This document shows, piece by piece, positions 12,143 to 38,008 of a stretch of DNA of 64,000 bases. The DNA lies in contig JALGYY010000047.1 in the NCBI GenBank assembly GCA_025782575.1, positions 62,001 to 126,000 on the forward strand, read 5' to 3'. Made by a program: the position numbers and the translations under genes. Origin of the DNA: a bacterium. Lineage in GTDB: Bacteria > Orphanbacterota > Orphanbacteria > Orphanbacterales > Orphanbacteraceae. Each line of letters opens with the position of its first letter. The stretch's first letter is position 1. The notes beneath the pieces were generated by a model. It ran no database searches. It saw only the letters and a list, made by a program, of their open reading frames with translations, and was not told where the DNA came from.

Positions 12143-12167
12143 AATCGATCCTAGCTTAGGAGGTGGT

Positions 12168-16850: not shown

Positions 16851-16852
16851 GA

Positions 16853-18832: not shown

Positions 18833-19882
18833 CTACTTAGGGGGCGTGAAAATGAATGGTGCCTTGAAAGTGACGACCCCCTTCGGAATTTCCGGAAACC
18901 GCCAACCACGAATCTGTGAGATAGCACAAGCCGCAAGATCTTCGGATGCCAGTGTGTTTTCCACCACAGTTGCTTCCAAAACATTGCCGGACGGAGCTAC
19001 GGTGATTCCTACAACCAGCTTTCCCCGGAGACCCGGGCTTCGATTCAGCTCATTGTCGTAACAGAATTGGATCCCGGCCGAGTATTTCCGAACTACCGCG
19101 AGCAGGGAAGAGTTGCTTCGCCACTCGCCACCTCCGCGCGTACCCGAACCTGAACCGGCCACGCCACCCCGTCTGCCGCCGGCCCTCCCGCCCGGTGATC
19201 CTGGGCCACTGCCCGCTGCCCCTCCCCCAAGATCGTCGATGGAGGAAATTGTAATTCGGGAGCTGCCGAGCGCTCCACCGAGTGCAGCTACATCAACCCC
19301 TGCGGGGGATCCTGTCGAGGGGGCGCCCGCTTCTCCGGCGCTCCGACCGGCTCTTACCTGTCTCCGGCGTTCCCCTCGCGATTTGTTCACTCCTTTTCCC
19401 TTCCCATCGGCAGATAGAGAGGTGGACAGGTCAGCGAGTACCGCTCCGAGCGATCCCTTTACGTCGGCGAGTTCTCGGCTTACCAACTGTCTCGCCATGG
19501 CCCGCCCCGCCTCGCCTCGCGGAGTCGGTTCGGTCTCCTGCTTTGCGGTCTTGCGGCCCCCCGCCGGTTTCGCAGACTCCGGCCGAGCGTCAGCGACCGG
19601 TTCCGGGTCGGGATTCACCGTCTCAGCCGGCGGCGCGATCGCCTTCACTTCAGGCGTGGTCTGCGATTGCACAACCGGTTCCGGTTTCTGAAGAATCAGC
19701 CTGGCCAGACGTTCCGGAACAGCTTCGATACTCGCCACTTCCATCTCCCGGTTGGGAGTGATGAGAACAATGGCGAGAAACAGCACGCCGGCCGTGGCCG
19801 ACCAGGAGAGGCACTTTCGGAATCGGGGATCGATCTGGCCCAATACCGGTTGCCTGTATGGGTGAGGTATGGAAATCACCAT
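18833..19882 (-). CDS. AgmX/PglI-type TonB-like energy transducer
   Basis: 349 residues. One membrane helix follows a short cytosolic start (about 28-46, ATAGVLFLAIVLI). A long Pro/Glu/Ala- then Gly/Ser-rich periplasmic linker (70-255) leads to a C-terminal domain at about 258-349: VVRKYSAGIQFCYDNELNRSPGLRGKLVVGITVAPSGNVLEATV and CAISQIRGWRFPEIPKG. That domain is the AgmX/PglI C-terminal fold, related to TonB. In myxobacteria AgmX (GltJ) belongs to the gliding and focal-adhesion machinery. With the ExbB/ExbD genes just upstream, it should carry proton-motive-force energy across the periplasm. GAGGAG lies nine bases before the ATG. It is the last gene of the long operon. Confidence 0.9.
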   Translation of the reverse strand: MVISIPHPYRQPVLGQIDPRFRKCLSWSATAGVLFLAIVLITPNREMEVASIEAVPERLARLILQKPEPVVQSQTTPEVKAIAPPAETVNPDPEPVADARPESAKPAGGRKTAKQETEPTPRGEAGRAMARQLVSRELADVKGSLGAVLADLSTSLSADGKGKGVNKSRGERRRQVRAGRSAGEAGAPSTGSPAGVDVAALGGALGSSRITISSIDDLGGGAAGSGPGSPGGRAGGRRGGVAGSGSGTRGGGEWRSNSSLLAVVRKYSAGIQFCYDNELNRSPGLRGKLVVGITVAPSGNVLEATVVENTLASEDLAACAISQIRGWRFPEIPKGVVTFKAPFIFTPPK

Positions 19883-19895
19883 GATCGGGGTCTCC

Positions 19896-20390
19896 TCAGA
19901 TCTTGATCACCGCGAGCGATATGCTGGCGAACCCGCTTTGCTGACATGTGTACATCACCTTCTGAAGCACCTGGAACGGGATTTCCCGATCACCCTGGAT
20001 CGTGATCTGTCCCTCACTGTCGTCATTCGGCGTGCCTCGAAGCGCCGCGATCTCGTCCTGCTTCTCTTTCGCCTCGGCGAGACGCGCGGCGAGCGGTTCG
20101 ATTTTCATGCCTGTCCCTTCGATCACTTCCCGCACGGTAGATATCAGTTCGCTCCCGAGCAGAATGTCCGTCTCGGAGACAGCCACCACAAGAGTGGCTA
20201 CCGGCTGGTCTTTGCTCGCTGATACCGGAAGCTCTACTCCCGGTACCGGAGTTACTACCTCTCCTTCCGCCACAAAACTCTTCAACAAAAAGAGAAGCAG
20301 CACAGTCAAAATATCCATCATGGAAGTGATTCGGAGCTTCTGCGGCTTCCCGATATTCCTGCGCTTCCGTTTGCTTTTATGTCGAATCAT
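19896..20390 (-). CDS. exbD: ExbD/TolR family protein with intact membrane Asp
   Basis: 164 residues: basic N-terminus (KSKRKRRNIGKPQK), a single membrane helix ITSMMDILTVLLLFLLKSF with Asp26 at the position of the essential proton-carrying Asp of ExbD/TolR, and a periplasmic domain (about 60-164) that includes ITIQGDREIPFQVLQKVMYTCQQSGFASISLAVI, typical of ExbD. It would pair with the ExbB/TolQ-like protein two genes upstream to form a rotary or conformational proton motor. It differs from its neighbour, which has Asn at this position. It starts with ATG and ends 13 bases before the AgmX-like gene. Confidence 0.93.
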   Translation of the reverse strand: MIRHKSKRKRRNIGKPQKLRITSMMDILTVLLLFLLKSFVAEGEVVTPVPGVELPVSASKDQPVATLVVAVSETDILLGSELISTVREVIEGTGMKIEPLAARLAEAKEKQDEIAALRGTPNDDSEGQITIQGDREIPFQVLQKVMYTCQQSGFASISLAVIKI

Positions 20391-20401
20391 GATCGGCCTC
20401 G

Positions 20402-20872
20402 CTATCTGTGATTCGCGCCGAGGAGTGAAATCTGCGGCAGACCCGCCGCACGCACCACGTCCATGACGCCGATAATCGTGTCATACTTCGTTTCCGCTTC
20501 GGCGATGATCATGATCTCTTCATTTTCGGGGTGGGCGCCGGCGACAGATTCGAGTGCTGCCTGAAGCTCTCTCCGCTCATTCTCGCCCCCTCTCGGAACA
20601 GCCGTAGTCGGGATCATTTTCCCTTCGATTACGAACTGCTCCTCCCGGATCGTCACGGCAAGAAGAAGGTTCTCTTCGATGCCGTCGATCTCGTTCTGCT
20701 CTTCCGTGGCGACCTCAAACGGAAGGTTCATGCGGATAACGGACATCTCCACAAAAACCGCCGAGAGAAGAAGCATCGGAATCAGAACGACGAACAGATT
20801 CATGAGCGGAAGGACTTCGAGATCGTCCCTCACAAGCTCGCCGACAGCCGTCTGTTTTCTTCGATTCAACAT
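20402..20872 (-). CDS. exbD: ExbD/TolR family protein with Asn in place of the membrane Asp
   Basis: 156 residues with the ExbD layout: short cytosolic tail, one membrane helix (LEVLPLMNLFVVLIPMLLL) and a periplasmic domain ending EIMIIAEAETKYDTIIGVMDVVRAAGLPQISLLG. The residue aligned with the proton-translocating Asp of ExbD/TolR (normally P-x-x-D) is Asn25. This subunit probably cannot relay protons by itself and may act as a structural partner of the second ExbD, which keeps Asp26. ATG at 20872 has GGAGG five bases upstream; a GTG three bases earlier is too close. It sits directly between the ExbB-like and second ExbD-like genes. Confidence 0.92.
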   Translation of the reverse strand: MLNRRKQTAVGELVRDDLEVLPLMNLFVVLIPMLLLSAVFVEMSVIRMNLPFEVATEEQNEIDGIEENLLLAVTIREEQFVIEGKMIPTTAVPRGGENERRELQAALESVAGAHPENEEIMIIAEAETKYDTIIGVMDVVRAAGLPQISLLGANHR

Positions 20873-20887
20873 CACATCCTCCGGTCG

Positions 20888-21643
20888 TTAGCGAAGAACA
20901 ACCTGAACATCTTCCTGGAACTTCCTGCGCGCAGCTTCGTCGGCAGGAGAGAGGACAGGCGCCTCGGAAGTCGTGCGGTTCGTGACTGCCGGAGCGGCTT
21001 CTCTCGATACTCCTTGCGGGCTCGCAGCGAGTGCCTGAATCAGTCGCACCGACATTTCGTCGATCTGCTCGATGATCCGCTCCACTTTGGAAACCAGAAA
21101 CGAGTGAAGTAGAAGAGTGGGCACGGCGACGATAAGGCCGAAGGCGGTTGTGTTGAGGGCCTGGGAGATTCCCGCCGCGAGAAACGCCGAACGCTGCGAA
21201 GGATCGGCCGCTCCCACGGCAGCAAAAGCTGTAGTCAGACCGAAGATCGTACCGAGCAGTCCGAGCAGGGTGGCGACATTGGAGAGCATGCTGAGGTGGG
21301 GAAGCCGCCGGGTGAGCGGGGGGATCACGATAGAGGCTTCTCCTTCGGCCGAATCGAGCAGAGCATCGCGGGAGTTGTCGGGCGTTTCGAGGACCGTGAG
21401 TGCTACCTGAGCGGCCGGGGACTTAACTTTTCTGCAGAGGTCTACTGCAGCGTGGCGGTCGCCCCGGCCGATATGGGCGAGCAGATCATTTCTCAGTTTA
21501 CGATTGTTAAGGGCGGAAGCTCGAGCGATCACCCAGAAACGCTCCGCCGCAATCGCCACAATGAGAACGGCCGCTCCAAGAATGATGTACATGAACGGTC
21601 CGCCCTGCTTGAAGAACGAAGAAAAAGTCGAAAGGATATCCAT
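20888..21643 (-). CDS. exbB: ExbB/TolQ/MotA-type proton channel
   Basis: 251 residues with three membrane helices: about 18-37 (FMYIILGAAVLIVAIAAERFWVI), 125-150 (LSMLSNVATLLGLLGTIFGLTTAFAAV) and 165-190 (ALNTTAFGLIVAVPTLLLHSFLV). The middle section LLGLLGTIFGLTTAF and LNTTAFGLIVAVP is the MotA_ExbB signature, including the Thr residues lining the channel. It forms the stator pore with the ExbD proteins. The C-terminal tail (Ala/Pro-rich, about 30 residues) is longer than in E. coli ExbB. Start ATG at 21643 with GGAGG ten bases upstream; a GTG at 21652 would overlap the preceding gene and has no room for a binding site. Confidence 0.94.
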   Translation of the reverse strand: MDILSTFSSFFKQGGPFMYIILGAAVLIVAIAAERFWVIARASALNNRKLRNDLLAHIGRGDRHAAVDLCRKVKSPAAQVALTVLETPDNSRDALLDSAEGEASIVIPPLTRRLPHLSMLSNVATLLGLLGTIFGLTTAFAAVGAADPSQRSAFLAAGISQALNTTAFGLIVAVPTLLLHSFLVSKVERIIEQIDEMSVRLIQALAASPQGVSREAAPAVTNRTTSEAPVLSPADEAARRKFQEDVQVVLR

Positions 21644-21645
21644 GA

Positions 21646-21966
21646 TTACCACACCTCCATTTGAGAAAGCCCCGCGGGCAGAGTTAACAGTCGAACAGGG
21701 AGAGCTGCCGATCCGATGGCGGTGTACTCGTCGAGATACAATCTATGAATCATGTCGGGGTAGCGTGGTTGCTCCCGGGACGAAATGAAGAGTACCTGGG
21801 GAAGGGGAATCTCCCCCTCGATCGAAATGGCGTCAAGTGTCCCCGCGTCTCTGCTCGCTTCGCCGGATACCCCGGTTTCAGCAGATAGAATGGTGGCCGG
21901 AAGCAGTAAGCACGCCATGACGATGACGGGCCATGTCGTCTGGTTCCATTTGTGAGTCTTTGTCAT
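21646..21966 (-). CDS. Small secreted protein preceding the ExbB gene
   Basis: 106 residues: a signal peptide (WPVIVMACLLLPATILSAE) and a short mature part with ISIEGEIPLPQVLFISSREQPRYPDMIHRLYLDEY. From memory, myxobacterial and deltaproteobacterial motor clusters have a small protein at this very place, between the TPR lipoprotein and TolQ genes, with a similar IEGE...P.V..I..R pattern; this needs a profile search. Function unknown; a periplasmic connector is possible. The ATG overlaps the stop of the TPR-lipoprotein gene (ATGA), and its stop lies two bases before the ExbB start. Confidence 0.75.
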   Translation of the reverse strand: MTKTHKWNQTTWPVIVMACLLLPATILSAETGVSGEASRDAGTLDAISIEGEIPLPQVLFISSREQPRYPDMIHRLYLDEYTAIGSAALPVRLLTLPAGLSQMEVW

Positions 21967-22889
21967 TGCTCTTCTCCGATGATTCCGCCATTGCCGTCGC
22001 CACCGACGGGAAGCGTTCCGGCCGGCCGGTCAAAGTAAGGGGCGATCCCGTCCGGGTCGGCGCTCGCTCTCTCCGAGTACCGGCCGAACCACTCGGCCGC
22101 CTGCTGTTCGTCGTAAAAGTAGAATTGCTCGACAATCGCCAGATTGTAGTAAGGCCCGGGGAGATCAGAATCGATCTCGACGGCGTTCAAGAATGAATCA
22201 CGTGCGCTCATCGGATCGCCGGCATAGAGAAGGGAAATACCGTAATTGTTATGATTCGCAGCGCTCCCCGGGTCGGCCAGAAGAGCGCTCCTTGTCGCCT
22301 CGCCGGCATTTTCAAAATTTTCTCCCTTGAGCCGGATATAGGCGAGTGATGATCCTGTAGACTTCCAGTGCGGTCCCGGACGGTGAAGGAGCTCGATCAC
22401 TTCGGCGGCCCCTCCCGGTTCGCCGGCCGCCTCCGAATGGAGGGCGAACGAGGCGAGAACCTCTTCGGGAACAATGGATCCATTACGGCGAACACCATCT
22501 ATGATGGATAGCGCTTCTCCGTATCTCCCGGACTCGTAGAGAAGCTTGGAATAAGCTGTCAATGCCGGCATGTAAGCCGGGTCACGATCAAGAGAGGCGC
22601 GGAGATACTCTTCTGATTCGGTTTTCCGTCCGAGCCTGGTACATACCTCCGCTGCCTGGTAGAGCCAGTACGGTTCATCCGGTTCGTAGCGAGCCGATCG
22701 GTCAAGCCGGCGGAGCAGCTGATCGCCGGCGAGTTCCCCTTCCCCTATGATCTCCTCCACCAGGAAACCAGCCGTGCTGTTTCTCGAACCACACCCGCTC
22801 ATGATCATGGGAACGGCGAGGACGAACAGGAGCAGGTACTGTCTATTGAAATACGAAGCGATCGGGCGTCCGCTCGATGACGAGTTCAT
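21963..22889 (-). CDS. TPR lipoprotein (AglT/GltE-like)
   Basis: 308 residues. A type II signal peptide with lipobox MSGC (Cys33) anchors it, probably to the outer membrane. The rest is a chain of TPR helices, for example PYWLYQAAEVCTRLGRKTESEEYLRASLDRDPAYMPALTAYSKLLYESGRYGEALSII and SAANHNNYGISLLYAGDPMSARDSFLNAVEIDSDLPGPYYNLAIVEQFYF. Such lipoproteins scaffold multi-protein complexes in the periplasm. By position (between the giant TPR protein and the ExbB module) it corresponds to AglT/GltE in gliding-motility-like clusters. This equation is inference from layout. Start and upstream stop share one base (TAATG). Confidence 0.85.
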   Translation of the reverse strand: MNSSSSGRPIASYFNRQYLLLFVLAVPMIMSGCGSRNSTAGFLVEEIIGEGELAGDQLLRRLDRSARYEPDEPYWLYQAAEVCTRLGRKTESEEYLRASLDRDPAYMPALTAYSKLLYESGRYGEALSIIDGVRRNGSIVPEEVLASFALHSEAAGEPGGAAEVIELLHRPGPHWKSTGSSLAYIRLKGENFENAGEATRSALLADPGSAANHNNYGISLLYAGDPMSARDSFLNAVEIDSDLPGPYYNLAIVEQFYFYDEQQAAEWFGRYSERASADPDGIAPYFDRPAGTLPVGGDGNGGIIGEEQ

Positions 22890-25800: not shown

Positions 25801-27718
25801 CTTCTCCCCGCTCGAAGTGATGGCGCGATGAACTCTCGAGAGTTCTGCCGACGACCAGTCGAGAGACCGAATCACGCTCAGCCAGCGAAGACGCGATCAG
25901 TAATTCGAGTGAATCCGCTGCAGTGAGCGCAATTCGGAGGCGGTCACTCGACCCGGCCATCGCCAGAGTGGAATCGATCGCCGAACGAACGAGTTCAGAC
26001 CGTGCAAGCTGAGCATCCGCCCGGCGTGCGAGGGCGTCCAGGCCTGTTGTCATTCTGGGAACCCAGATCTCATCATGTGAGCGGTTGACCAGATCAGGTA
26101 CTCGATTCGAAAATATGACAATCCAGAGGTCGAGTGCGCGTGAGAGTGAATCCTCCCACGCGAGAAGCTCTCCGGGCGGCGGAACCCCCTCCGGGTAGGT
26201 GGCGGCCCGTTCCCGGTTCGGTCCCTGCACGTAGATCGATGAAAGCGCACCCGCCACCAGCTCATTCCGGCCAGTGCGCTCTCCCATGGATTCGGATCTC
26301 TCGGCCACACGCGCTAACACCTGAGTGCGGATATCATCCAGCCTGCCCAGTGTTTCCGACACCCGGGAGAGGAGCGAATCAAGGCGAGCATTCTGAATCT
26401 CAATCAGCTCATGCACGCCGGCGGATTGTAGAATTCCGGACTCCAGATAAGCTTTCAGACGGGCCAGTCTGGACTCTTCCAGTTCAATCCGAAATCGGGT
26501 CTTCCGTAACTCCTCAGAAAGTCGGTCCCCATCCCTCTCTCGCCGGCGGGTTTCTTCCATCAGGGAAGAAGCTTCATCCGGGAATGTTATGTACGAAGGA
26601 ATAGAACGGGACCCGAGCTGGAGACGAACCGATGGGATGTTCGAGTTCTCGGGGGACTGAGTGAGATCGAGTGAGATAAGGGCGAGCGATTGAATCGATT
26701 CGACCTCCGGTGAAAGATCGATCAGAAGTGCGTCAACCGAGCCGAGTTCGGATTCCCACGCGTGCCAGAGTGAGTCGGCGAGAGATGGATCGGAGAGGCG
26801 GGCAAGCTCGCTTTCCTCATAGAACCACACCGTCTCGGCTGAGCGAAGGACGTCGTAAGCTTCATCGGGGCGGCCCGCTGAAAGGGCGATCGAGGCCCGG
26901 GCGAGAGCGGCGCTCCTGTAGTCGGAAGGGGATGGGGTATTCTGGAGTGCCCGATCCAGGTATCGGGCCGCGTCAATGGAATCGCTCTCCTCCTGCGCCA
27001 GGATGGCGAGCATGTGAGCTGCTCGAGAAGCGAAACGGGAACCGGCCGGCACGGATGCCAGCAGGTCGCGCGCCTCTTTCCTGGTCGTCTCCTGTTGGCT
27101 AGCCAGATGGAGCTTCGCCGCGTCTCGGAGCTCAGCTTCTCCCGGAGAGTCTGAGGCGTAGCCGGCCAGTCCCTCCAGAGCGCGAACGGCCGATGGTCCC
27201 CGATCTCCCGCCGCCAGCCAATCGCGAAAAAGTCCGAGCGCCGAAATGTCGCTCGGTTCAAAGCTGTCTCCCTCGTCCATCCCGGAAGCGAGGCTCGTCG
27301 GATCGAGCAGGATGGCAAACTGCTGCAATTGATCGGAGTAGAGATCATCTCTCCCCAGTCCTGCAGAAGCGCGAACAGCCGCACGGAATCCAGCATGATC
27401 GCCGAGGCGCATGGCGAGAATGGCGCGCAGAAACAGTGCCCGTGAGCGCATGGGGGATGATGGGGCCAAATCGTTTCCGTCAATCGTGATTTCCTCGAGG
27501 TGGGAGAGCGCCTCGTTCAGATTGCCCGCCCGCCACTCCAGAATCGCCTGGCGGAGAGCGAGGTCCTCCCACTCCATCGGCTCGATCGAACCGGGAAGCC
27601 CGGGGGCTGAGGCGCCTGCCGGAGAAAACAGGGCCGGCAGGAGCGATGCAATGAGCAGTGCGAACCCAGCAGTCCGTACGGACGACGGACTGCAATCTGT
27701 TTGGTGGCACGAACTCAT
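22889..27718 (-). CDS. Giant periplasmic TPR protein (AgmU/GltD-like)
   Basis: 1609 residues, the largest protein of the window. Signal peptide 1-37 (FALLIASLLPALFSPAGASA). TPR-like helical repeats run from about 50-330 and 700-1500. A coiled coil lies at about 375-470 (RRRERDGDRLSEELRKTRFRIELEESRLARLKAYL...). The C-terminal part has a block NRAAAYRIGSTLVHFADAV and DDAAAYREVLSEQAWEFDDAAEQAWEK, which I remember as conserved in large TPR proteins of deltaproteobacterial Agl/Glt-like operons (AgmU/GltD type). It would form a long periplasmic scaffold bridging motor and outer-membrane parts. Both ends overlap neighbouring genes, so its amount is tied to theirs. Confidence 0.86.
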   Translation of the reverse strand: MSSCHQTDCSPSSVRTAGFALLIASLLPALFSPAGASAPGLPGSIEPMEWEDLALRQAILEWRAGNLNEALSHLEEITIDGNDLAPSSPMRSRALFLRAILAMRLGDHAGFRAAVRASAGLGRDDLYSDQLQQFAILLDPTSLASGMDEGDSFEPSDISALGLFRDWLAAGDRGPSAVRALEGLAGYASDSPGEAELRDAAKLHLASQQETTRKEARDLLASVPAGSRFASRAAHMLAILAQEESDSIDAARYLDRALQNTPSPSDYRSAALARASIALSAGRPDEAYDVLRSAETVWFYEESELARLSDPSLADSLWHAWESELGSVDALLIDLSPEVESIQSLALISLDLTQSPENSNIPSVRLQLGSRSIPSYITFPDEASSLMEETRRRERDGDRLSEELRKTRFRIELEESRLARLKAYLESGILQSAGVHELIEIQNARLDSLLSRVSETLGRLDDIRTQVLARVAERSESMGERTGRNELVAGALSSIYVQGPNRERAATYPEGVPPPGELLAWEDSLSRALDLWIVIFSNRVPDLVNRSHDEIWVPRMTTGLDALARRADAQLARSELVRSAIDSTLAMAGSSDRLRIALTAADSLELLIASSLAERDSVSRLVVGRTLESSSRHHFERGEGLLYTLAIASDELAWIASHHPGEGTAVSSPGNMRAEAIERFSSFLAGYPDPVTRGDVRFRLASLELAKAKEDFSVRMAAFLDGPGAGTGATPFVDYGPAYDLYKSIRDQDQQFHRMDAVLFNIGMIQLDEGDHAGIAVLTRLVRHYPETEHRQEALLRLGDDSFHKKQFASSIPWFEEAARGENAEFTAIALYKTGWAHFNLESYKDGARSFRRLLDHYEEGVGSGTADLREEAREYLIHSLARAGGAGPFEELFSGEGKRGYERSILAGLSTLFRRFSLIDESVDIERLWLEKYPTDPSALLAARRLIETLDTANRKDDAMSARLDLAPRFLNGAAWSEAIKDDSLRAEGDSFAFDSYSRAALSHHVAARASGDTTDWEDALEIYEIMIATWSDESRSALLHYYAGEAAGFLGEYDSAVNHFENGVFADSLEIREDAAWQVISMLDTWYESSRGEMDTGPDSIAASLITASDRLLPVITGEKKRADVIWRAATLAYYHDRTPVALEGLERFLVLCDQDERAPVAARLLGQTYFELAEFDRAALAYERAGQIAVEHGIDSLAVAMEALVPLCLFRQAEATAISDSDRPEIAARLFEKLAADHDSYEHAATALYRAGLGFREGESPDAAVRCWTNLIDQYTDSEWVKDSRLQIASTWEEAGRPAAAARAYESFADFHGDDPDAGDALWKASKLLALAGDPAGADHIQTIYLDRFPGDVETALAVLGSRAGRELDAVGPDNPISSLMSTGAGSSHLARYQILAADHPDLSDPVLLARAGFLAGEEASNRFRQLRITHPLSESIAAKKELLDVVFAKYRTCIAMEAYPWNRAAAYRIGSTLVHFADAVRHGEPPPDLTGDDAAAYREVLSEQAWEFDDAAEQAWEKLLRQSGESNEDEGGWIGRTRRSLWPRVARRFVHMPEMDFPLVAAEARAVPVIAASDEQNEQDEHAPISGDELTLDSGSLEQPHEEKQ

Positions 27719-28536: not shown

Positions 28537-28537
28537 T

Positions 28538-29125: not shown

Positions 29126-29140
29126 ATTCAGGTCCTCCTG

Positions 29141-29950: not shown

Positions 29951-30651
29951 GATCGGTGTTCCCTCTCTTCATGGCTCGTGACGGCGTGCCAGGTCAGGCC
30001 GGCCCGAAAGGTCCAGCTGGCGATGGTTTCTCTCCCGGAAACGATGCTGTTTCCGGCGCGATGGTTTGTCTGGAGCCCGAAAAAATAACGCTCAGCGGAA
30101 AAATCGAAGCCGACCGATCGAAACAGGGGACCGTGAGCGGCGAGGCCCATTCCACTCGTCCATTCGGTGATTGCTTGCAGATCGACGACGATGGGAGGCT
30201 CTCCCGCTATTTCATATGTGATGTGGTCGGGCGAATAATCGATGCGTAAGAGGCCGACCGATCCCGTTGCCAGAACATCGACTGAAAAGAGCCGGACCAC
30301 TCCGACTCGTGATGCAAGCTCGATGGCGGAAAGAGAGACATCGGGAGAGAGAGCGGTATCGAGTGCTCCGCCTGATTGAACTGTGTTCGCCCGCCAGACC
30401 CTGGGACCGGCAGCCCACCTGCCTCGTCCGATCTCCGCGGCCAATCCATATTGGAGGATCGGGCCTGTATCCCAGCCGTATCGATGAAGCCGGGCGTCCA
30501 GATAGAGCGCCCCCGACCAGGGGGTCATGGTGATGCGAACAGGAGCCGGTGGCCCTTCTCTCTCCGCAGCTGCAGGCCACGCGAAAAGAAGAGCGGCGGC
30601 AAGAGCCGTCAAGGCGGCGCACGATTTTTGAACGGACAGATAACTCATCAT
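29947..30651 (-). CDS. Putative outer-membrane beta-barrel protein
   Basis: 234 residues with a signal peptide (CAALTALAAALLFAWPAAAE) and alternating hydrophobic/polar strands (RITMTPWSGALYLDARLHRYGWDTGPILQYGLAAEIGRGRWAAGPRVW..., SVGFDFSAERYFFGLQ, WTFRAGLTWHAV) that suggest an eight- to ten-stranded barrel. No conserved family was recognised. It starts with two adjacent ATG codons, GGGAGGAG lying seven bases before the first. It follows a lipoprotein gene by 24 bases and overlaps the SH3/barrel gene. It may be the GltA/B/H-like barrel of the complex, an assignment by position only. Confidence 0.75.
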   Translation of the reverse strand: MMSYLSVQKSCAALTALAAALLFAWPAAAEREGPPAPVRITMTPWSGALYLDARLHRYGWDTGPILQYGLAAEIGRGRWAAGPRVWRANTVQSGGALDTALSPDVSLSAIELASRVGVVRLFSVDVLATGSVGLLRIDYSPDHITYEIAGEPPIVVDLQAITEWTSGMGLAAHGPLFRSVGFDFSAERYFFGLQTNHRAGNSIVSGRETIASWTFRAGLTWHAVTSHEEREHRS

Positions 30652-30675
30652 GCTGTGACTCCTCCCGTTCCGGCT

Positions 30676-31263
30676 CTATTCGATGGTCCAGGTCACTCCG
30701 GCCGCCAGGATCTTCGCTTCGGTAGAAAGAAATGGATTGATCACTGTGGAGTCGGCCCCCGATTCCAGTTCGATGTCCTCGATATCTTCCGCCATGTAAA
30801 GAAGCAGGAAAGCCGTCCCCGGACCCGGAATGGTCGCATCGAATCGGAAGTTCACTTCCCGAATGAGATAGTCGAAGCCGGTTACAAGAACGGTTTCATT
30901 CGCTATCGAGATCGAGTTCTCCAGAATCATGTCAATCTGTCTGACCGACTCGAGGCGGGGATCGACGGCGTCGAGTGCGAAGTCGGCCGATTCAAGTGTG
31001 TCGCTCCATCGAACCTCCGCTACCGCTGAACTCGTCAGTATTTCCCTGAAAGTAATCCTCCCCTTCATGGAGACGGAAACAGGAGCACCGGAGGTGATGG
31101 GACGATCGGTCCCCGGCGCGGCTTCCAGAATCTCGAGCTTGGTCCATGTCTCTTCGACTGGAGGTGTGGTCAGACATCCACCCAGAAAAATGGCACAGAG
31201 TACGGGCACAATTCCCTGCCATCTCTTGTGCCATTCGGTTGTTTCGCCTGACCGGTTCGTCAT
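30676..31263 (-). CDS. Lipoprotein, unknown function
   Basis: About 195 residues from the ATG at 31263, which overlaps the stop of the NHL-protein gene as ATGA. A type II signal (GIVPVLCAIFLGGC, Cys30) is followed by a beta-rich domain (SVSMKGRITFREILTSSAVAEVRWSDTLES, DMILENSISIANETVLVTGFDYLIREVNFRFDATIPGPGTAFLLLYMAEDIE). Upstream in-frame codons back to 31389 would read through the neighbouring gene and lack a signal, so they are excluded. No family recognised. Its position between the NHL propeller and the barrel proteins suggests it bridges them at the outer membrane. Confidence 0.75.
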   Translation of the reverse strand: MTNRSGETTEWHKRWQGIVPVLCAIFLGGCLTTPPVEETWTKLEILEAAPGTDRPITSGAPVSVSMKGRITFREILTSSAVAEVRWSDTLESADFALDAVDPRLESVRQIDMILENSISIANETVLVTGFDYLIREVNFRFDATIPGPGTAFLLLYMAEDIEDIELESGADSTVINPFLSTEAKILAAGVTWTIE

Positions 31264-32909
31264 CGAATCAGCACCATTTTTGTACGCCGTTCTTCGTCGC
31301 CTAGATCGAGACGTGCCGTATAGATTCCGGACGCCACAGGTTGCCCCGTATCGTTCCGCCCGTCCCATACAAGAGAGTGTTTCCCCCAATCGAGCGGACC
31401 GTTCTGCAGTGTTCGGACCATCCGGCCACCTATGTCGTATATGCTCAGGTTAACGTGCAGATCCTGGCCGGCTCTCACTTCGAAGCGAATGGTCGTTACC
31501 GGATTGAACGGATTCGGGGTGGCCACCAGGAGAGAGGAGCGTGCCGGGGCACTGTCACTGCCTGAACCATAGGAGAACCGGGCTTCCATCTCGCCGCCAC
31601 TACCCTGGTCGTAACTCGAATATGCGACGATTCGAAGAACCATCTCTCCATGTGAACTCCGACCGACCAGGTCGTCGACCGGAATCCGGAATTGCTGAGA
31701 TCCTGCATCCAGCACTCCCAATTCGTATTCGATGAGAGAGGCGTTCGTCCTTTCGTCGATGATCACCGCCCGTACGTCGGCACGATCGGTGAGCACATAA
31801 TCGGCTGACACCGTCTTCCCCGATCGAACGGAAAGACCTTTTACCTCTACACCGAAGTGAGCGAGACGAAGTCCGCTCGCGGCCGTCCACTCCTCCACCA
31901 GCACCCCGCTTCCCTGGCCGGCGCGAACCGTCCGCCCACTCCGGTGGTCGGTTACTCGCAGGAAAGGTATATGAAAGCTTCTCGGTCGATTGATCCCGTC
32001 TGTCCACTCCGCCACTTTCGAAAAGTCGGCCCCATACTTGACGACCCGGCCGTGCTGCGGTGATGTGGCGTATAGATTTCCCCAGTGGTCCGAGTCGAGT
32101 GAAGTGATAACTCCCGAGTCCCCCTTCCATGACGCATGCCATGTAAGCCTTTCCCCGTCGTCAACGAGGCGTACGAAGCGCCCGTTATGAGCATCAGCGA
32201 CAAAAACGTCGGAAGTATTCACACCGTCGAACCGCCCGACCGCGATGGCGCTCGGCCCGGCGAAACGACCCGGCCCGCTCCCGAGAGCACCGATCTCGCC
32301 GGCAAATACCGCCCCTGATTCCAGAAGGGAAAATCTGACGACACGATTCTTCCCCATGTCGGCGACATAGATCACATCATCGCTCGGGTCATCAGGGGTC
32401 CCTCTGTCCGAGTGAGTTACGTCATACGGACGGGCGAGACCGCTGATCTCGTAGAGAGGATGTAACCGGGCCCGGTCGAACTCGCTGGAAGTGCGGAAGA
32501 CGAGGATGCGGCGATTGCCTGAGTCTGCCACGTACAGATTTCCCTCGGCATCAACAGCCATGCCGCGGGGAGAGTCGAGCTTACCGAAGATTGTTCCTTC
32601 GCCGTTCCAGGCGTCGAAGCCCTTCCCGATCTCGCCGAACAGAATTCGATTCCATTCCGGGTCGGAGACGAATAGGAAGCAACGTGATTCCACATACGGG
32701 AAACCGTCATAGATATCCGTTTGCCCGACTACGACACCGTCGTACGGCGTGCCGAACAGGTCCCGGTCGAGTGTCTCCCTCGCCAGGCTTCGAGTAATCA
32801 CTTCCACGTTTCCCTCGCCGAACAGGGGCGCCGGCACAAAAGAGCCCGCGCTCACACCGGTTGCGAGAATCGCCCCCGACAGCACCAAGGTTCCGATCAT
32901 TCGTTTCAT
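31260..32909 (-). CDS. Secreted NHL-repeat beta-propeller with FlgD-like C-terminal domain
   Basis: 549 residues. Signal peptide 1-21. Residues about 90-320 contain NHL-type blades, the clearest being FGKLDSPRGMAVDAEGNLYVADSGNRRILVFR, with further ones ending VIYVADMGKNRVVRF and VFVADAHNGRFVRLVDD. A beta-sandwich follows (350-450). The last 85 residues form the FlgD-Ig/type-A-sorting-like domain (TPNPFNPVTTIRFEV, SLVWDGRNDTGQPVASGIYTARL, MVLIR). It is probably exported to the surface and may be an adhesin or ligand sensor for the complex. ATG at 32900 (residue 4) has better spacing from GAGGAG than the one at 32909, so three residues may be extra. Confidence 0.87.
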   Translation of the reverse strand: MKRMIGTLVLSGAILATGVSAGSFVPAPLFGEGNVEVITRSLARETLDRDLFGTPYDGVVVGQTDIYDGFPYVESRCFLFVSDPEWNRILFGEIGKGFDAWNGEGTIFGKLDSPRGMAVDAEGNLYVADSGNRRILVFRTSSEFDRARLHPLYEISGLARPYDVTHSDRGTPDDPSDDVIYVADMGKNRVVRFSLLESGAVFAGEIGALGSGPGRFAGPSAIAVGRFDGVNTSDVFVADAHNGRFVRLVDDGERLTWHASWKGDSGVITSLDSDHWGNLYATSPQHGRVVKYGADFSKVAEWTDGINRPRSFHIPFLRVTDHRSGRTVRAGQGSGVLVEEWTAASGLRLAHFGVEVKGLSVRSGKTVSADYVLTDRADVRAVIIDERTNASLIEYELGVLDAGSQQFRIPVDDLVGRSSHGEMVLRIVAYSSYDQGSGGEMEARFSYGSGSDSAPARSSLLVATPNPFNPVTTIRFEVRAGQDLHVNLSIYDIGGRMVRTLQNGPLDWGKHSLVWDGRNDTGQPVASGIYTARLDLGDEERRTKMVLIR

Positions 32910-32940
32910 CTCCTCAATCCCACCTTCCCATCAACATCCC

Positions 32941-34083
32941 CTAGAAGTTCACGGCGAACCCGGACTCGAAAATGTTCGCCGAAAAGTTGTTGCTGTTGAA
33001 ATAGCGCTCGTAACGAACGATGAGTCTCGGCTGCCGAATGGTACGAAAACCGTAAATGGACGAACCGAGTGCCCAGTCGACATGAGTGCCGAACAGGTGG
33101 GCTGTAAACGAGGTCATCCGATAGTCGCCCGAACGGTAGCCGCCGATCCCCTCGGAGGCCTCATACTCATCACGATAGAACCAGGCCTCATCCTGCTCGT
33201 AATACCGGTACCGATAGCGGACGATGACGTTCTTGTTCAGGTATTGGTTCAGCCGCGCACCAAGCGTGTGGGATTCGATCCCCCAGTCATCGGTGTAGTA
33301 CTTGTAGCTGAGGTGAACACTCGATTCGTTAGTGAAGTACCGATTGAGTTTCAGAAAGAAATCTCGTCGCGATCGAACGTCCGGGTGAACCTCAGGCTCG
33401 GTACCGCCACCGGCGTTCACATTGCGGTAGGGGCTGTGCTGTAGACCCCGCACTTCGTTCACCTCTGCGCCGATTCTAATGAGGGTCCCGGGTGTGACCA
33501 CCTGGGTCGCCACGAGATTCAGGTAGGTGTTCGTTCGCGAATCGTCTCCACCGGGCGTGTCGTCGTCAGCAAGCGGATCGATGCGATCCCAGCCGTAAGA
33601 TGATCCTGCCGAGAGATTGAGCGATTCCGATAGAAAGTCTCGATTCAGGTTCCCGGATACCTGCTGGGCAAGGTAATCCTCTTCGATCGAAACGTAATAA
33701 CCGGCATCGGTGAAACCGTAGTCAATGCTCGCAGTAACCACGTCACGTGCTTTTTCGTACGGCTCGAAGGCGCTGAGGTCGCCGGCTACGGGACGGCTTG
33801 CGCTCGTGATCGCGTCGGCCGCCTCGTCGGATCCGGGAGCGGCGTCGACAGGGGGTATTACCACTGTCTCATTGTTCCAGACAAAATAGAGGTCGGCGTT
33901 GTTCTTCAGGTTGATCCCATAGTCGTAGTAATGGGAGTAGACGCGAATATCATCGGAATCGGCGAAATAGTGAAACGTGTATGTCGCCCCCTGCTGGTCG
34001 ACGGCAGATTCCCCCGCAAGCGTACGTGCAGCGAAAGCTGTCAATGCGATTGTCACGATTCCGATCTCCTTGCAGACCTTCAT
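32941..34083 (-). CDS. DUF3570 outer-membrane protein
   Basis: About 380 residues from the ATG at 34083, which overlaps the stop of the DUF4266 gene. Signal peptide IGIVTIALTAFAARTLAGE. The sequence is rich in aromatic-alternating strands with the family's feature YTFHYFADSDDIRVYSHYYDYGINL early on and repeated stretches such as NKNVIVRYRYRYYEQDEAWF and RLIVRYERYFNSNNFSANIFESGFAVNF with terminal Phe, so a large barrel of 14-16 strands. DUF3570 genes are commonly next to DUF4266 and a thioredoxin, as here; their function is not established. Upstream codons to 34149 would run through DUF4266 and are rejected. Confidence 0.87.
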   Translation of the reverse strand: MKVCKEIGIVTIALTAFAARTLAGESAVDQQGATYTFHYFADSDDIRVYSHYYDYGINLKNNADLYFVWNNETVVIPPVDAAPGSDEAADAITSASRPVAGDLSAFEPYEKARDVVTASIDYGFTDAGYYVSIEEDYLAQQVSGNLNRDFLSESLNLSAGSSYGWDRIDPLADDDTPGGDDSRTNTYLNLVATQVVTPGTLIRIGAEVNEVRGLQHSPYRNVNAGGGTEPEVHPDVRSRRDFFLKLNRYFTNESSVHLSYKYYTDDWGIESHTLGARLNQYLNKNVIVRYRYRYYEQDEAWFYRDEYEASEGIGGYRSGDYRMTSFTAHLFGTHVDWALGSSIYGFRTIRQPRLIVRYERYFNSNNFSANIFESGFAVNF

Positions 34084-34310
34084 TTGCAGGCGCAGCCTCC
34101 GCCGGCGCCGCCGGTTCCCCCGGTCGATCCCTCGCGGGTCTCGATCCAACTGACGTTTCTTGACGCTTCTTTCGCGTCTTCGTCGAATGACATGATCGAA
34201 TCGCCCAGATACTCCCGTTCATACGGCTTGACCGTGGCGCAACCGGCAAGCATCGCCGTTACCAGAGCGGCACACAAAAAGACGAAGGGGGGAACGGATG
34301 GACGCTTCAC
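34080..34310 (-). CDS. DUF4266 small lipoprotein
   Basis: 76 residues from a GTG at 34310 with GAGGA six bases upstream, one base after the stop of the thioredoxin gene. Lipobox LAGC follows a hydrophobic stretch (FLCAALVTAMLAGC). The DUF4266 signature KPYEREYLGDSIMSFD comes right after the anchor. The C-terminus is a Gly-rich tail ending GGCACK, a CxC pair that could bind a metal or be a thioredoxin target. DUF4266 proteins accompany DUF3570 and TlpA-like genes, often with the flavin transferase ApbE; no ApbE gene is present in this window. Function unknown. Confidence 0.88.
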   Translation of the reverse strand: MKRPSVPPFVFLCAALVTAMLAGCATVKPYEREYLGDSIMSFDEDAKEASRNVSWIETREGSTGGTGGAGGGCACK

Positions 34311-34311
34311 G

Positions 34312-34857
34312 TTATTTCCTCTCGCTGGATGCCGGAACGAGAAGGCCCGGCCGGCCGGCAAGTAGCTGGTCCACTATCCTGCGAAGCACGGGTAGTTCCT
34401 CGTCGGGGCCCTTTCGTGCGATGTAGGCCACGTCCCCCTCTGCGTCGATCACGTAGGTGCAGGGGAGAGAGGAGAGGTCGAGCCGTTTGGCGAGCCCGCC
34501 CGGTCCGTCATGACAGACGGTGAGCAAGAGTTTCGATCTTCTAACGAATTTCTCGACCTTGCTTTTCCTGGTATCCACCGAAATCGCGATGATTCGTCCT
34601 CCCCGGGGAGCGATCTCGTCGTTCCAACTATCGAGGAGGGGGAGTTCCTTCAGGCACGGCTTGCACCATGTGGCCCAGAAGTTCACGACAATCACTTCCC
34701 CGCGGTGTTCAGCCACGCTGAACTCCTGGCCGGCGAGAGTTTCGAGGCCGTAACCGGCGATCATGGCGCCATGCCCGGCAGTCGGGGTGGCCTGTGCGCT
34801 TATCGCACCCATCAGGAGAGCCGCCCCCAATCCTGAAATGATGATCGATCGTTTCAT
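34312..34857 (-). CDS. Exported TlpA-like thiol:disulfide oxidoreductase
   Basis: 181 residues: signal peptide (SIIISGLGAALLMGAISAQA), then a thioredoxin/redoxin fold with redox-active WCKPC (Cys65, Cys68) in VVNFWATWCKPCLKELPLLDSW, and the cis-Pro region SLPCTYVIDAEGDVAYIARKG. It probably keeps periplasmic Cys pairs reduced, for example heme-attachment CxxCH motifs of the c-type cytochrome-like protein upstream or the CxC of DUF4266. ATG at 34857 has AGGAG nine bases upstream; the in-frame ATG at 34902 overlaps the preceding gene and gives no signal peptide at the N-terminus. Confidence 0.9.
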   Translation of the reverse strand: MKRSIIISGLGAALLMGAISAQATPTAGHGAMIAGYGLETLAGQEFSVAEHRGEVIVVNFWATWCKPCLKELPLLDSWNDEIAPRGGRIIAISVDTRKSKVEKFVRRSKLLLTVCHDGPGGLAKRLDLSSLPCTYVIDAEGDVAYIARKGPDEELPVLRRIVDQLLAGRPGLLVPASSERK

Positions 34858-34882
34858 GGCATCAAACTCCTGACAAAGGTCG

Positions 34883-36910
34883 CTATCGATACTGGGCACC
34901 AAGAGTCACCCAGAGATTGAAGAGCTCTTTTTCCTGATCAGTCAGAACGTGGTCACCTGGGTGGGCCCCCTTGTCCGCCGCTACGCCAAGACCGAGTACA
35001 TAGTCGATCAGGAGAGATCGTCGCGGAAATGGAGGCACGGTTACGGAGTTGCCGCCCATCGTGTTTCCGCCGGAAAGATTGATGTAGGCTCGCGGAAACA
35101 CCTGCATCCTTTGACCGATCGTGTCGAGGACGGAAGTCAGATCGAGCGAGCCCGGAGGTGCGAGGGTATCGGTCACTGTGAGCCAGAGACTGTCGAGAAC
35201 GCCTAACGAGTCATTGAGCGTGATCTCCAGCGAGTCACGCTCGACGTATGTCTCGAGATGACATCCCGCGCAATTTCTTTCCACGATGGGGCTGATCTGA
35301 TCTCTGTAGTTGATGTATGTGTAGTTTTCGGGGCTGATGTTCAGATCGGTCGGCTCCCGGGTAGCGGCGATCGGCGTGGTATCGGCCGCTTCGATGTCGA
35401 CGAATCCGCGATCCGTGTGACAGCCGGTGCACTGGTCGACCGTTTCGCCCGGGCGGACGTAGATCCAGGTACGCTTGACCACGAAGCCGCGGCGGTGCTC
35501 GTCGAGGGTCGCAAACGTGAGCGGCACATCCGCCGGCACTTTGATCCGGAACGAACCGTCTTCGTAGACGGGCGCGAAACCGATAATGGCTCTCTTCTCG
35601 AAGGTGTTTGCCGAGAAGTCATTCGGCTCGCCGGCCATGGTCGGGATGGCGGCGATTATGGCCATCTCGTTGATCGTGTCGACACCTTTTTCAGGCCGCT
35701 CCTGGCCGTCATTTTCTCCCCGCTTGAACACGTTATGGCCCATGAATATGCCGAAATCCTTCGACTCATCGATCACAGACGGCGTCACCGGCGGCTTCTC
35801 CCTCGGCGCGAGAAGCTGGGCGTCATACTCGTTCCACTCGGGATCGTTGTAGAGGAAAGTAAGGTCGTCGATCGAAATGCTGGCGGGATCTTCCGTCGTT
35901 CCCGCACCTCTTTGAGAGAGCGTGAAAGTGTAAAGTCCGTAGTCGACTTCGGATTCGCTCGCCGCCGGAAGTGTATAGGAGGCGATGTACCGGCTGCCGC
36001 CCAGGGCGAACGGATACTTGAACGCACCGAATGTCCATGGCGCCCCGTTGCCGTTTACCTCGGCAGTCAGCACGTCCCAGTGAAGGTCGGTGTCTGAGCC
36101 GGCAGGATCGGCGGGACCCTGCTCGGTCTTCAATATGGCGATCGGTCCGGCGTCTTCGTTGACCGACCGGGATTCTATGGCGATCATCCGGCCGTCGGGA
36201 GTCGGCTGGGCATGAAAAAAGTTTCTATTATGAGGACCGTACTTGTGGAAGGTCTGCGAACCTTCCTGTGTCGTAAAGAAGAGCGGGAAACGGTTGAACG
36301 TTCCGAAGTGCTCCCATCTTGTATAAACAATGAGGCCGCTCGGCATCAACACGGGATCGAAATCATCGCTCTGATTGAAGCTGATTCGGTGGATGCCTGA
36401 ACCGTCCAGACCTCCGATAAAGAGATGTTCGGCGGGGGAGTGGTTGTACTCATCCATCTCGCCGGCACGGGAGCTGGTGAACATGATGTTCCCGTCAGGG
36501 AGGTAGAGCGGGTCGAAATCATTGCCGCCGCCGGCCGTCACCTGTCGCATGTTGGTCCCGTCCGCATCGATCTCGTAAATGTTCCTTGCGCCCCCCTCGG
36601 GTGGGCGCATGGAGAAAAGGATCCGTTCGCCGTCGAACGAAACGCACGGATCTGACACGCTGGCCCCCACAAAATTGGTGATGGGCGTAACGTTCCCGTC
36701 CGGAGAGATGGGGGAGAGTTTGTAGAGATTCCCTTCCGCGTTGCTCCGGTTCAGCGTTTCTTCCCCTTTAGTCTTCACGAACACGATGGCCTCTGTCGTC
36801 TCTTCCACCATGATCAAATCATCAGGCGCGTTCTCTTCACATCCCGGCGCCAGGGCCAGAATGAAGAGCGCGATCGGTAAGAGCTGTCTGTTTCTGCCGG
36901 ACATCTTCAT
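34883..36910 (-). CDS. HzsA-related protein: PD40-like propeller with two c-type heme motifs
   Basis: 675 residues. The N-terminus is exported; APGC at residue 24 is an imperfect lipobox. Residues about 60-330 are TolB/PD40-type blades (DPCVSFDGERILFSMRPPEGGARNIYEIDADG, FDPLYLPDGNIMFTSSR). The segment EDGSFRIKVPADVPLTFATLDEHRRGFVVKRTWIYVRPGETVDQCTGCHTDRG and the end LTDQEKELFNLWVTLGAQYR are characteristic of HzsA-related proteins (named after hydrazine synthase alpha). Two heme-binding motifs, CTGCH (494-498) and CAGCH (547-551), are present. It likely acts as a periplasmic or surface electron carrier; hydrazine synthesis is not implied because the other HZS subunits are absent. GGGGAG lies three bases before the ATG at 36910, nine before the next at 36904. 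Confidence 0.88.
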   Translation of the reverse strand: MKMSGRNRQLLPIALFILALAPGCEENAPDDLIMVEETTEAIVFVKTKGEETLNRSNAEGNLYKLSPISPDGNVTPITNFVGASVSDPCVSFDGERILFSMRPPEGGARNIYEIDADGTNMRQVTAGGGNDFDPLYLPDGNIMFTSSRAGEMDEYNHSPAEHLFIGGLDGSGIHRISFNQSDDFDPVLMPSGLIVYTRWEHFGTFNRFPLFFTTQEGSQTFHKYGPHNRNFFHAQPTPDGRMIAIESRSVNEDAGPIAILKTEQGPADPAGSDTDLHWDVLTAEVNGNGAPWTFGAFKYPFALGGSRYIASYTLPAASESEVDYGLYTFTLSQRGAGTTEDPASISIDDLTFLYNDPEWNEYDAQLLAPREKPPVTPSVIDESKDFGIFMGHNVFKRGENDGQERPEKGVDTINEMAIIAAIPTMAGEPNDFSANTFEKRAIIGFAPVYEDGSFRIKVPADVPLTFATLDEHRRGFVVKRTWIYVRPGETVDQCTGCHTDRGFVDIEAADTTPIAATREPTDLNISPENYTYINYRDQISPIVERNCAGCHLETYVERDSLEITLNDSLGVLDSLWLTVTDTLAPPGSLDLTSVLDTIGQRMQVFPRAYINLSGGNTMGGNSVTVPPFPRRSLLIDYVLGLGVAADKGAHPGDHVLTDQEKELFNLWVTLGAQYR

Positions 36911-36920
36911 CGTCTCCCCG

Positions 36921-37565
36921 TCACTTGAGCTCGCGATAAAACGCAAAGCCCACCGTCGCTTCCTGATATCGGTAAGCGACCGTTCCCTGGTCCGATTCTC
37001 CGCCGAACACCGTGGTTCCCCGCATTTCGAATCGGATCGCCACGTCATTCCGGACATACGCTTCGAGACCTCCTCCGTAGGAGATCACGTTCTTCGTCAC
37101 CGGGTCTGCGTTCAGCGCTTCACCGGGAAATACCATGATCATTCCGTAGCCGGCCGAACCGTATGGTTGCAGGCGCCACGGCAGGGGATAGCGGACGATC
37201 GCATTGATCGTATTCAAGAGAGCGTGGACCGTTTCCCCCGGGCTATGCCCCACACTCGCCTCCCAGCCGAGCCAGGAGTCCGGGTTGAACGCGAGCCGAA
37301 AAAGGTAGTACTCGTCATCGCCCAGATTTCCGTAGGCCGGGCTGAATGCCAGCCGCTTCATAAACGGCCGGGGTCCCGGCTTGATGGCGAACGGGTCTTC
37401 GGCAAGTTCGGGCACAATGTATTCGCGACCGTTATGAAGCACAGGGCTAGCAGCCGTTTCCACATCGACAGGCGTATCGGAGGTCCCCTCCGCCAGCGGG
37501 GAAGCTGCTATCAGAAGGACCGCCAGCAAGGTCCCGCTCAGAATCGTCATGGTATTCCGCCTCAT
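36921..37565 (-). CDS. Putative outer-membrane barrel protein of the heme module
   Basis: 214 residues with a signal peptide (TILSGTLLAVLLIAASPLA) and strands typical of a small porin-like barrel (DDEYYLFRLAFNPDSWLGWEASVGHSP, LQPYGSAGYGMIMVFPG, AIRFEMRGTTVFGG, QEATVGFAFYREL). No family recognised. The ATG overlaps the lipoprotein stop (ATGA) and its stop lies ten bases before the HzsA-related gene, so all three are co-translated. Together with the heme proteins a porin-cytochrome-like arrangement is conceivable, though the barrel seems smaller than MtrB-type porins. Confidence 0.75.
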   Translation of the reverse strand: MRRNTMTILSGTLLAVLLIAASPLAEGTSDTPVDVETAASPVLHNGREYIVPELAEDPFAIKPGPRPFMKRLAFSPAYGNLGDDEYYLFRLAFNPDSWLGWEASVGHSPGETVHALLNTINAIVRYPLPWRLQPYGSAGYGMIMVFPGEALNADPVTKNVISYGGGLEAYVRNDVAIRFEMRGTTVFGGESDQGTVAYRYQEATVGFAFYRELK

Positions 37566-38008
37566 TCTTCGAAGTACCCCTTTTCGAGCCAGGCGAGAAT
37601 CGTCTGGTAGCCCGGGTCGCCGGTCGAAGCAAACGGTTCGAAGCTATGAGGAGTCCCGCCGGCATTTTCATCGAGCGGCTTCGTGAGCAATGGGCTCGCG
37701 GGCAGGTCATAAGGGTCTGCCTGAAGTACGCTCTGCTCGAACTCGAATTCCAGATCCCGTGCCCCTTCGGGGGTGAGTTCGTAGCTCCCCCGAATTCCGC
37801 CGCCATGGCAATCTCCGGCGATGGTGCAACCGGCACTCGAAAGCACGGGCGCCACGGTGGAAGTGAACTGATCAAAATCGAGCACGAATTCTTTACCTCC
37901 ACCCACCGGATCCGGCGTGCCACTGGGAGTTGAGCAACCCATGGCGACCAGGAAAACCCCTGCCGTCGCACCGGTTGCACAAGACAAAACACGGGGACCG
38001 CTCCACAT
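37562..38008 (-). CDS. Lipoprotein with C-x5-C-H motif, first gene of the long operon
   Basis: 148 residues from the ATG at 38008. Lipobox VAMGC (Cys25). The segment FDQFTSTVAPVLSSAGCTIAGDCHGGGIRGSYELTPEGARDLEFEFEQSVLQADPYDLPASPLL resembles the c-type cytochrome-like modules found in HzsA-associated and planctomycetal proteins, with Cys61, Cys67 and His68. The spacing is C-x5-C-H instead of C-x2-C-H, so covalent heme attachment is uncertain; a disulfide or metal site is also possible. GAGGAG is 11 bases upstream of the ATG. A 298-bp divergent promoter region separates it from the DUF523 gene. Confidence 0.75.
   Translation of the reverse strand: MWSGPRVLSCATGATAGVFLVAMGCSTPSGTPDPVGGGKEFVLDFDQFTSTVAPVLSSAGCTIAGDCHGGGIRGSYELTPEGARDLEFEFEQSVLQADPYDLPASPLLTKPLDENAGGTPHSFEPFASTGDPGYQTILAWLEKGYFEE

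Follow-up and report, generated by a model that had tools for sequence, protein, structure and literature searches.

What could bring genes for heme, thiol and candidate flavin proteins together with the genes of a proton-driven motor in a single operon? The question is raised by a run of nineteen genes (g01 to g19) on the minus strand of a 64,000-nucleotide stretch of an Orphanbacteraceae genome (GenBank assembly GCA_025782575.1, contig JALGYY010000047.1, positions 62,001 to 126,000 of the forward strand; G000:C20:62001-126000 in our collection, in which the source genome, G000, measures 4.88 Mb), referred to below as the window. The nineteen genes probably encode one envelope-spanning system, a proton-driven machine of the Agl-Glt/Nfs type known from Myxococcus xanthus that carries a dedicated outer-membrane redox module, and that they form one genetic and functional unit is well supported. 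All the evidence presented is sequence-based, and most of the genomes compared are metagenome-assembled.

Organization of the operon

The genes run from 38,008, the ATG that is the best start of g01, to 18,833, the stop of g19, with stop-to-start gaps of -4 to +31 bp (best starts) and overlaps of 1 or 4 bp at seven junctions. A sequence-only reading of the window had described these nineteen consecutive, tightly spaced genes correctly, and its family labels (HZS_alpha with PD40, DUF3570, DUF4266, TlpA-like, NHL with FlgD_ig, SH3 with barrel, two TPR proteins, MotA_ExbB, two ExbD and an AgmX/PglI C-terminal domain) agree with the profile matches. The small proteins g08, g09, g11, g12 and g15 were assigned through synteny and modest similarity. 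The features are as follows (HZS, hydrazine synthase; AF2, AlphaFold2; pLDDT, predicted local distance difference test; aa, amino acids).

37562..38008 (-): g01, cytochrome c-like lipoprotein, heme putative; invariant C-X(4-5)-CH-G at about 37805-37828 and C-terminal 'DPxYQAILAWI' helix
36921..37565 (-): g02, small outer-membrane beta-barrel; OMP_b-brl 23.8 bits and OMP_myx_plus 20.6 bits, both under cut-off; orthologs in 21 genomes
34883..36910 (-): g03, HZS-alpha-like diheme lipoprotein with propeller, HZS_alpha middle domain (PF18582, E=1e-17) and second heme domain
35417..35431 (-): first CXXCH heme motif of g03 (C543-H547), invariant in orthologs
35258..35272 (-): second CXXCH heme motif of g03 (C596-H600), invariant in orthologs
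34312..34857 (-): g04, TlpA/ResA-like thiol-disulfide protein; AhpC-TSA/Redoxin profiles; WCKPC at about 34654-34665, CXXC conserved
34080..34310 (-): g05, DUF4266 lipoprotein (PF14086, E=2e-14) ending in GGGCACK; CXC at about 34086-34094, conserved in orthologs
32941..34083 (-): g06, DUF3570 protein (PF12094, E=3e-41), predicted 16-strand outer-membrane barrel (AF2 pLDDT 81)
33796..33816 (-): candidate ApbE flavinylation site of g06, D-A-I-T-S-A-S; D108, A113, S114, R115 and P116 invariant in 19 sequences
31260..32909 (-): g07, NHL propeller with C-terminal FlgD_ig (profile matches), probably secreted; orthologs in 21 genomes
30676..31263 (-): g08, lipoprotein found only in the window's lineage; no Pfam/NCBIfam match; orthologs in 17 genomes
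29947..30651 (-): g09, putative outer-membrane barrel; no Pfam/NCBIfam match; orthologs in 16 genomes
29141..29950 (-): g10, SH3b (SH3_3) with OMP_myx_plus barrel (TIGR04565, 60.4 bits, cut-off 60)
28538..29125 (-): g11, exported protein, weakly PepSY-like (match in 7 of 13 orthologs, best E 0.026)
27715..28536 (-): g12, exported coiled-coil protein, first gene common to motor modules elsewhere; its profile matches L089 (3e-5) and L223
22889..27718 (-): g13, GltD-like giant TPR protein, 1609 aa; profile matches in motor-only clusters
21963..22889 (-): g14, GltE-like TPR lipoprotein; GltE model 23.5 bits, under cut-off; profile matches in motor-only clusters
21646..21966 (-): g15, small exported protein, 106 aa, in the GltF position; orthologs between g14 and g16; profile 8e-6 and 5e-5 in motor-only loci
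20888..21643 (-): g16, ExbB/AglR-like proton channel subunit (PF01618, MotA_ExbB, E=6e-23)
20402..20872 (-): g17, ExbD/AglQ-S-like (PF02472), proton-carrying Asp replaced by Asn (codon at about 20798-20800)
19896..20390 (-): g18, ExbD/AglQ-S-like (PF02472), Asp kept (codon at about 20313-20315) and invariant
18833..19882 (-): g19, AgmX/GltG-like TonB-type transducer (NF033768, 85.6 bits, cut-off 40; GltG model 56.2 bits, under cut-off; TonB_C), no FHA

The sequence-only reading had divided the operon at 32.9 kb and held that strong internal promoters or terminators there would speak against its unity. By consensus scan, the operon region contains six promoter-like sites against 5.5 expected, which is the chance level, and near 32.9 kb the minus strand has none of them; terminator-like sites (24 against 16.6 +/- 3.9) are dispersed over the region, again with none near that position.

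Conservation in the window's lineage

The full order of the nineteen genes recurs, at about 30-70% protein identity, in genomes of the Eisenbacteria/Krumholzibacteriota type. Synteny across related genomes, which had been proposed as a check, yielded seven complete contiguous copies (the window, G002, G331, G387, G388, G391 and G392); G002, from another genus of the same family, keeps all genes in the same order at 32-73% identity. G395 has all genes except a detected g15, and in G005, G343 and about a dozen further loci (Eisenbacteria, Krumholzibacteriia and some labelled Gemmatimonadota) the order is kept to the contig ends. Conservation excludes a chance arrangement, since other genera, families and phyla show this order as well. 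In G178, g08 was undetected and g09 and g12 were found by profile only. The clusters of G178 (L122) and G389 (L154), which have no ExbB/ExbD/ExbD, keep their TPR proteins and AgmX, with a motor acting in trans as a possibility.

The two halves are contiguous in every long-enough contig of this lineage with a single exception, the chromosome of Latescibacterota bin260 (CP070763), in which g01-g11 lie at 1.25 Mb (g08 and g09 undetected) and g13-g19 at 3.39 Mb. Although about 2 Mb apart, both halves have been retained, which argues that both are needed. In trees of six first-half and three second-half genes all fully supported splits agree, and patristic distances correlate with r=0.975, a value to which shared species history contributes. 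A search of a plasmid collection returned distant matches only, mostly to the propeller.

Four relatives from the window's own family (G001, G003, G004 and G006) have no close g03 or g13. Three of the four have a copy of AgmX, which may be a paralog like the one in the window's own genome, where a paralogous AgmX-type gene is found near an ExbB gene (G000:C13:418635 and 420650); these copies were not counted. AgmX alone was in any case dropped as a marker because it is too widespread (domain over cut-off in 82 of 386 genomes), and GltD together with the whole synteny was used instead.

A second lineage and the boundary between modules

A diverged version of the system is present in a distant genome, G288, and 229 genomes of this second class were sampled. 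DUF4266 occurs in 54 of them and a strong GltD in 54, with both in 42, so that DUF4266 accompanies 42 of the 54 GltD genomes against 12 of the 175 others (Fisher p=3e-24, a test that ignores kinship). At 16 of 71 GltD loci the DUF4266 gene lies 3.6-5.3 kb away; in fifteen of these adjacent loci, HZS-alpha-like, barrel, TlpA and DUF3570 genes are present too. The sixteenth (L205) has the same genes up to the contig end, which precedes the expected HZS-alpha-like gene. At seven further loci 12-24 kb separate the two modules, which are arranged either in tandem or back to back. Of the DUF4266 loci read first, 8 of the 14 with an HZS-alpha-like gene have a contiguous motor, as against none of the 23 without one (p=8e-5). 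In the tree of HZS-alpha-like proteins each lineage forms one clade. The claim of "one machine or one regulon", which was to fall if the halves were never neighbours, is therefore supported, since they are contiguous across the window's lineage and neighbours in the second class.

The typical order in the second class is HZS-alpha-like, in some cases a g01-like gene, barrel, barrel, TlpA, DUF4266 and DUF3570, followed by proteins of about 190 aa (g12-like in some loci) and about 640 aa (in the GltC place), then GltD, GltE, a protein of about 100 aa in the GltF place, ExbB, two ExbD and AgmX. The NHL protein g07 was undetected in these clusters. Since DUF3570 is the last gene of this redox module, to which the barrels belong, the boundary is, on gene order, not at 32.9 kb, where the sequence-only reading had put it, but after DUF3570 and the Glt/Nfs-type barrels; the Latescibacterota break, after g11 at about 28.5 kb, does not coincide with 32.9 kb either.

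The motor half

Profiles of g13, g14 and g16-g19 match motor-only clusters in many other genomes (g13 with E=1e-40 to 1e-116, weaker in one), and the gene order and sizes agree with gltD-gltE-gltF, aglRQS and gltG in the M. xanthus tables (PMC3169522). These profiles and this order identify the motor half as the Agl-Glt/Nfs 'core complex', so that the earlier comparison with Agl/Glt holds for this half (AgmX/GltG models, g13 profile, g10 barrel). Luciano and colleagues noted in 2011 that such a core complex, without an assigned function, is present in many bacteria; their main text mentions one extra gene and not the redox partners described here (PMC3169522). The barrel g10 is the sole OMP_myx_plus match over cut-off in its genome. 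In the large genome G034 members of this family adjoin the GltD/AgmX clusters, and in G474 and G520 they lie inside the HZS-alpha/motor cluster.

At the proton site, the g17 orthologs have Asn in all 11 members read, and in every core read (L036, L041, L043, L046, L089/L123 and the window) Asn is found in the first ExbD and Asp in the second. This consistent split suggests a heterodimer with one proton-carrying subunit. In M. xanthus the AglQ substitution D28N stops proton conductance and leaves the machine paralysed (PMC3858216), and according to a review Asp is predicted in AglQ as well as in AglS (PMC9389320); the Asn of g17 therefore looks like a real difference from M. xanthus. The window operon has no separate GltC gene. 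A fusion of GltC to the N-terminus of g13 was considered and dropped, as this N-terminus gave no clear match to the 620-800 aa protein that takes the GltC place in the second class.

The redox half

The protein g03 aligns with hydrazine synthase alpha (5c2v/5c2w, E=2e-26) over all three domains and both CXXCH motifs. It scores 94 bits against a cut-off of 800 in the hydrazine synthase equivalog model, and there are no HzsB/C-like (beta/gamma) neighbours among the profile-scanned operon proteins; g03 was accordingly not classed as a hydrazine synthase. The description of g03 as "HzsA-related" thus stands for its architecture and fails for the enzyme itself, and others have proposed a wider enzyme family (PMC10732223). 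In g01, residues C66, C72, H73 and H126 are invariant in the ortholog alignment; a Pfam scan of the orthologs gave nothing useful.

Clusters of DsbD, thioredoxin, DUF4266 and DUF3570 associated with flavinylation are known, and a DUF3570 protein is flavinylated by ApbE in another species (PMC8238504). DUF3570 proteins of the g06 type have a single site, D-x-x-[ST]-[STGA]-A-S, whose D, A and S are invariant; those outside this system have one or two. The AF2 barrel of g06 resembles porins and two-partner secretion barrels (Z up to 20.8 in fold comparison), and by strand count on this model the loop that holds the motif, which joins strands 3 and 4, would face the extracellular side or the lumen. 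ApbE directly adjoins the cluster in G331 and G178; G000 has one ApbE, elsewhere in the genome.

The window's genome contains a second DUF3570-DUF4266-TlpA cluster, without HZS-alpha-like or motor genes (L081, G000:C27:6.7-8.9 kb). At L034 (G022:C38) two HZS-alpha-like genes stand in tandem, each followed by an NHL-like gene, with no motor.

Surroundings of the operon

Just downstream of the operon, and in the same place in G002, are genes for a PAS histidine kinase and a FixJ-like response regulator (16242-18550, minus strand), a candidate regulator pair. Further downstream is a Ser/Thr protein kinase and PP2C phosphatase pair (10310-12908, minus strand); G002 has kept the PP2C gene of this pair as well. 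A Cobalamin riboswitch (81 bits) is present at 2181-2357 on the plus strand.

One machine and its possible work

In the mechanism that we propose, proton flow through ExbB/ExbD, with one acidic ExbD of two, would drive the GltG-like TonB protein g19, and the force would pass through the GltD/GltE-like periplasmic TPR scaffold to outer-membrane barrels of the Glt/Nfs family. A redox chain would be attached to this barrel platform: thiols of TlpA and then of the DUF4266 CXC may reduce a flavin on the DUF3570 barrel, which would exchange electrons with the cytochrome-like g01 and the diheme g03. The order of electron transfer would follow, by analogy, the published DsbD/thioredoxin scheme. The motor might then energise the redox complex, by loading, moving or gating it; we infer this use of the force, as well as the actual flavinylation of g06 and the surface position of g03.

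Several observations weigh against this proposal. Some redox modules have no contiguous motor and some motors no redox module, and the near-complete clusters of G389 and G178 are without ExbB/ExbD/ExbD between g15 and g19. The association between DUF4266 and GltD is uncorrected for phylogeny. The AF2 model of g01 (pLDDT 78) found no match in a PDB fold search, which gives g01 no structural support as a cytochrome; the flavin motif of g06 has S where G is usual, compared with the strict [ST]GA[ST]; and the window operon itself has no ApbE.

The separate occurrence of each module in some genomes could mean that two independent machines share only a promoter or regulatory need, as a regulon, without physical contact. 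This seems quite improbable, as even where the second class has the two modules in separate operons they are close to each other, back to back or in tandem, the split Latescibacterota genome retains both halves, and a contiguous motor is tied to the HZS-alpha-like gene (8 of 14 against 0 of 23). Nor do we think it at all likely that the motor moves an adhesin such as g07, with its NHL and FlgD-Ig domains, over the surface as in Myxococcus, the redox proteins merely maturing or protecting it (disulfides, hemes). The motor half and the g10 barrel are indeed Agl-Glt/Nfs-like, and TlpA-type proteins often serve cytochrome maturation, but g07 was undetected in the clusters of the second lineage, in which the HZS-alpha-like, TlpA, DUF4266 and DUF3570 proteins are constant.

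TonB-like energised import, in which ExbB/ExbD/AgmX would bring a metal or metal chelate in through the barrels, with reduction by the thiol/flavin/heme chain to release the metal, is unlikely. The ExbB/ExbD/TonB_C composition would suit such a function, and some DUF3570 clusters include a ferrous iron transporter (PMC8238504); profile scans, however, found no TonB-dependent receptor family among the 19 proteins and no metal transporter among the scanned neighbours, and a giant TPR scaffold with an OMP_myx_plus barrel is typical of Glt/Nfs loci. Loading or moving of the redox complex is favoured over import or gliding because redox proteins, and not an adhesin or a receptor, are the constant partners.

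The core complex has been known for more than ten years in many non-gliding bacteria without a role, and the redox link in two distant lineages now supplies concrete partners and, with them, a first tangible clue to the possible role of a gliding-related machine in its ancestral form; as the link is conserved in both, it allows a direct test of the role of the core complex. One could go further and imagine that the core complex at its root works an outer-membrane thiol-flavin-heme complex, the myxobacterial gliding and spore-coat machines having been derived from it by loss of the redox module and adoption of other cargo, an idea that is tentative and rather doubtful. If the proposal is true, the system represents an added type of machine, one in which an outer-membrane redox complex is acted on mechanically by proton motive force, and hints at the origin of gliding motors. 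It also gives a context to HZS-alpha-like and DUF3570/DUF4266 proteins, which are common yet unexplained.

Comparison with known systems

Each of the parts is known; their combination is new to the literature searched, in which we found no report joining them all, and the main text of the flavinylation study is silent on ExbB/ExbD, gliding and hydrazine synthase (PMC8238504). With the gliding (Agl-Glt) and spore-coat (Agl-Nfs) machines of M. xanthus (PMC3169522, PMC3858216) the operon shares ExbB with two ExbD, a GltG/AgmX-type TonB protein, GltD- and GltE-like TPR proteins beside the motor, a small protein in the GltF position, an OMP_myx_plus barrel and a similar order. It differs from them by the addition of HZS-alpha-like, TlpA, DUF4266 and DUF3570 proteins and, in the window's lineage, by the lack of a separate GltC gene, whereas the second class has a 620-800 aa protein in that place; furthermore, g19 has no FHA match and g17 has Asn, whereas in the gliding machine GltG has FHA and both ExbDs are predicted to have Asp.

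The DsbD/thioredoxin/DUF4266/DUF3570 flavinylation clusters (Meheust 2021, PMC8238504) likewise place a TlpA-like thioredoxin next to a DUF4266 with CXC and a DUF3570 that carries an ApbE-type motif. By contrast, the operon is without ApbE or DsbD, has one flavin motif instead of two, and adds the HZS-alpha-like diheme protein, the cytochrome-like lipoprotein, the barrels and the proton-driven machine. Hydrazine synthase alpha (PDB 5c2v), finally, has the same propeller, HZS_alpha middle domain, second heme domain and both CXXCH motifs, whereas g03 (94 bits against 800) is a lipoprotein encoded without HzsB/C-like neighbours.

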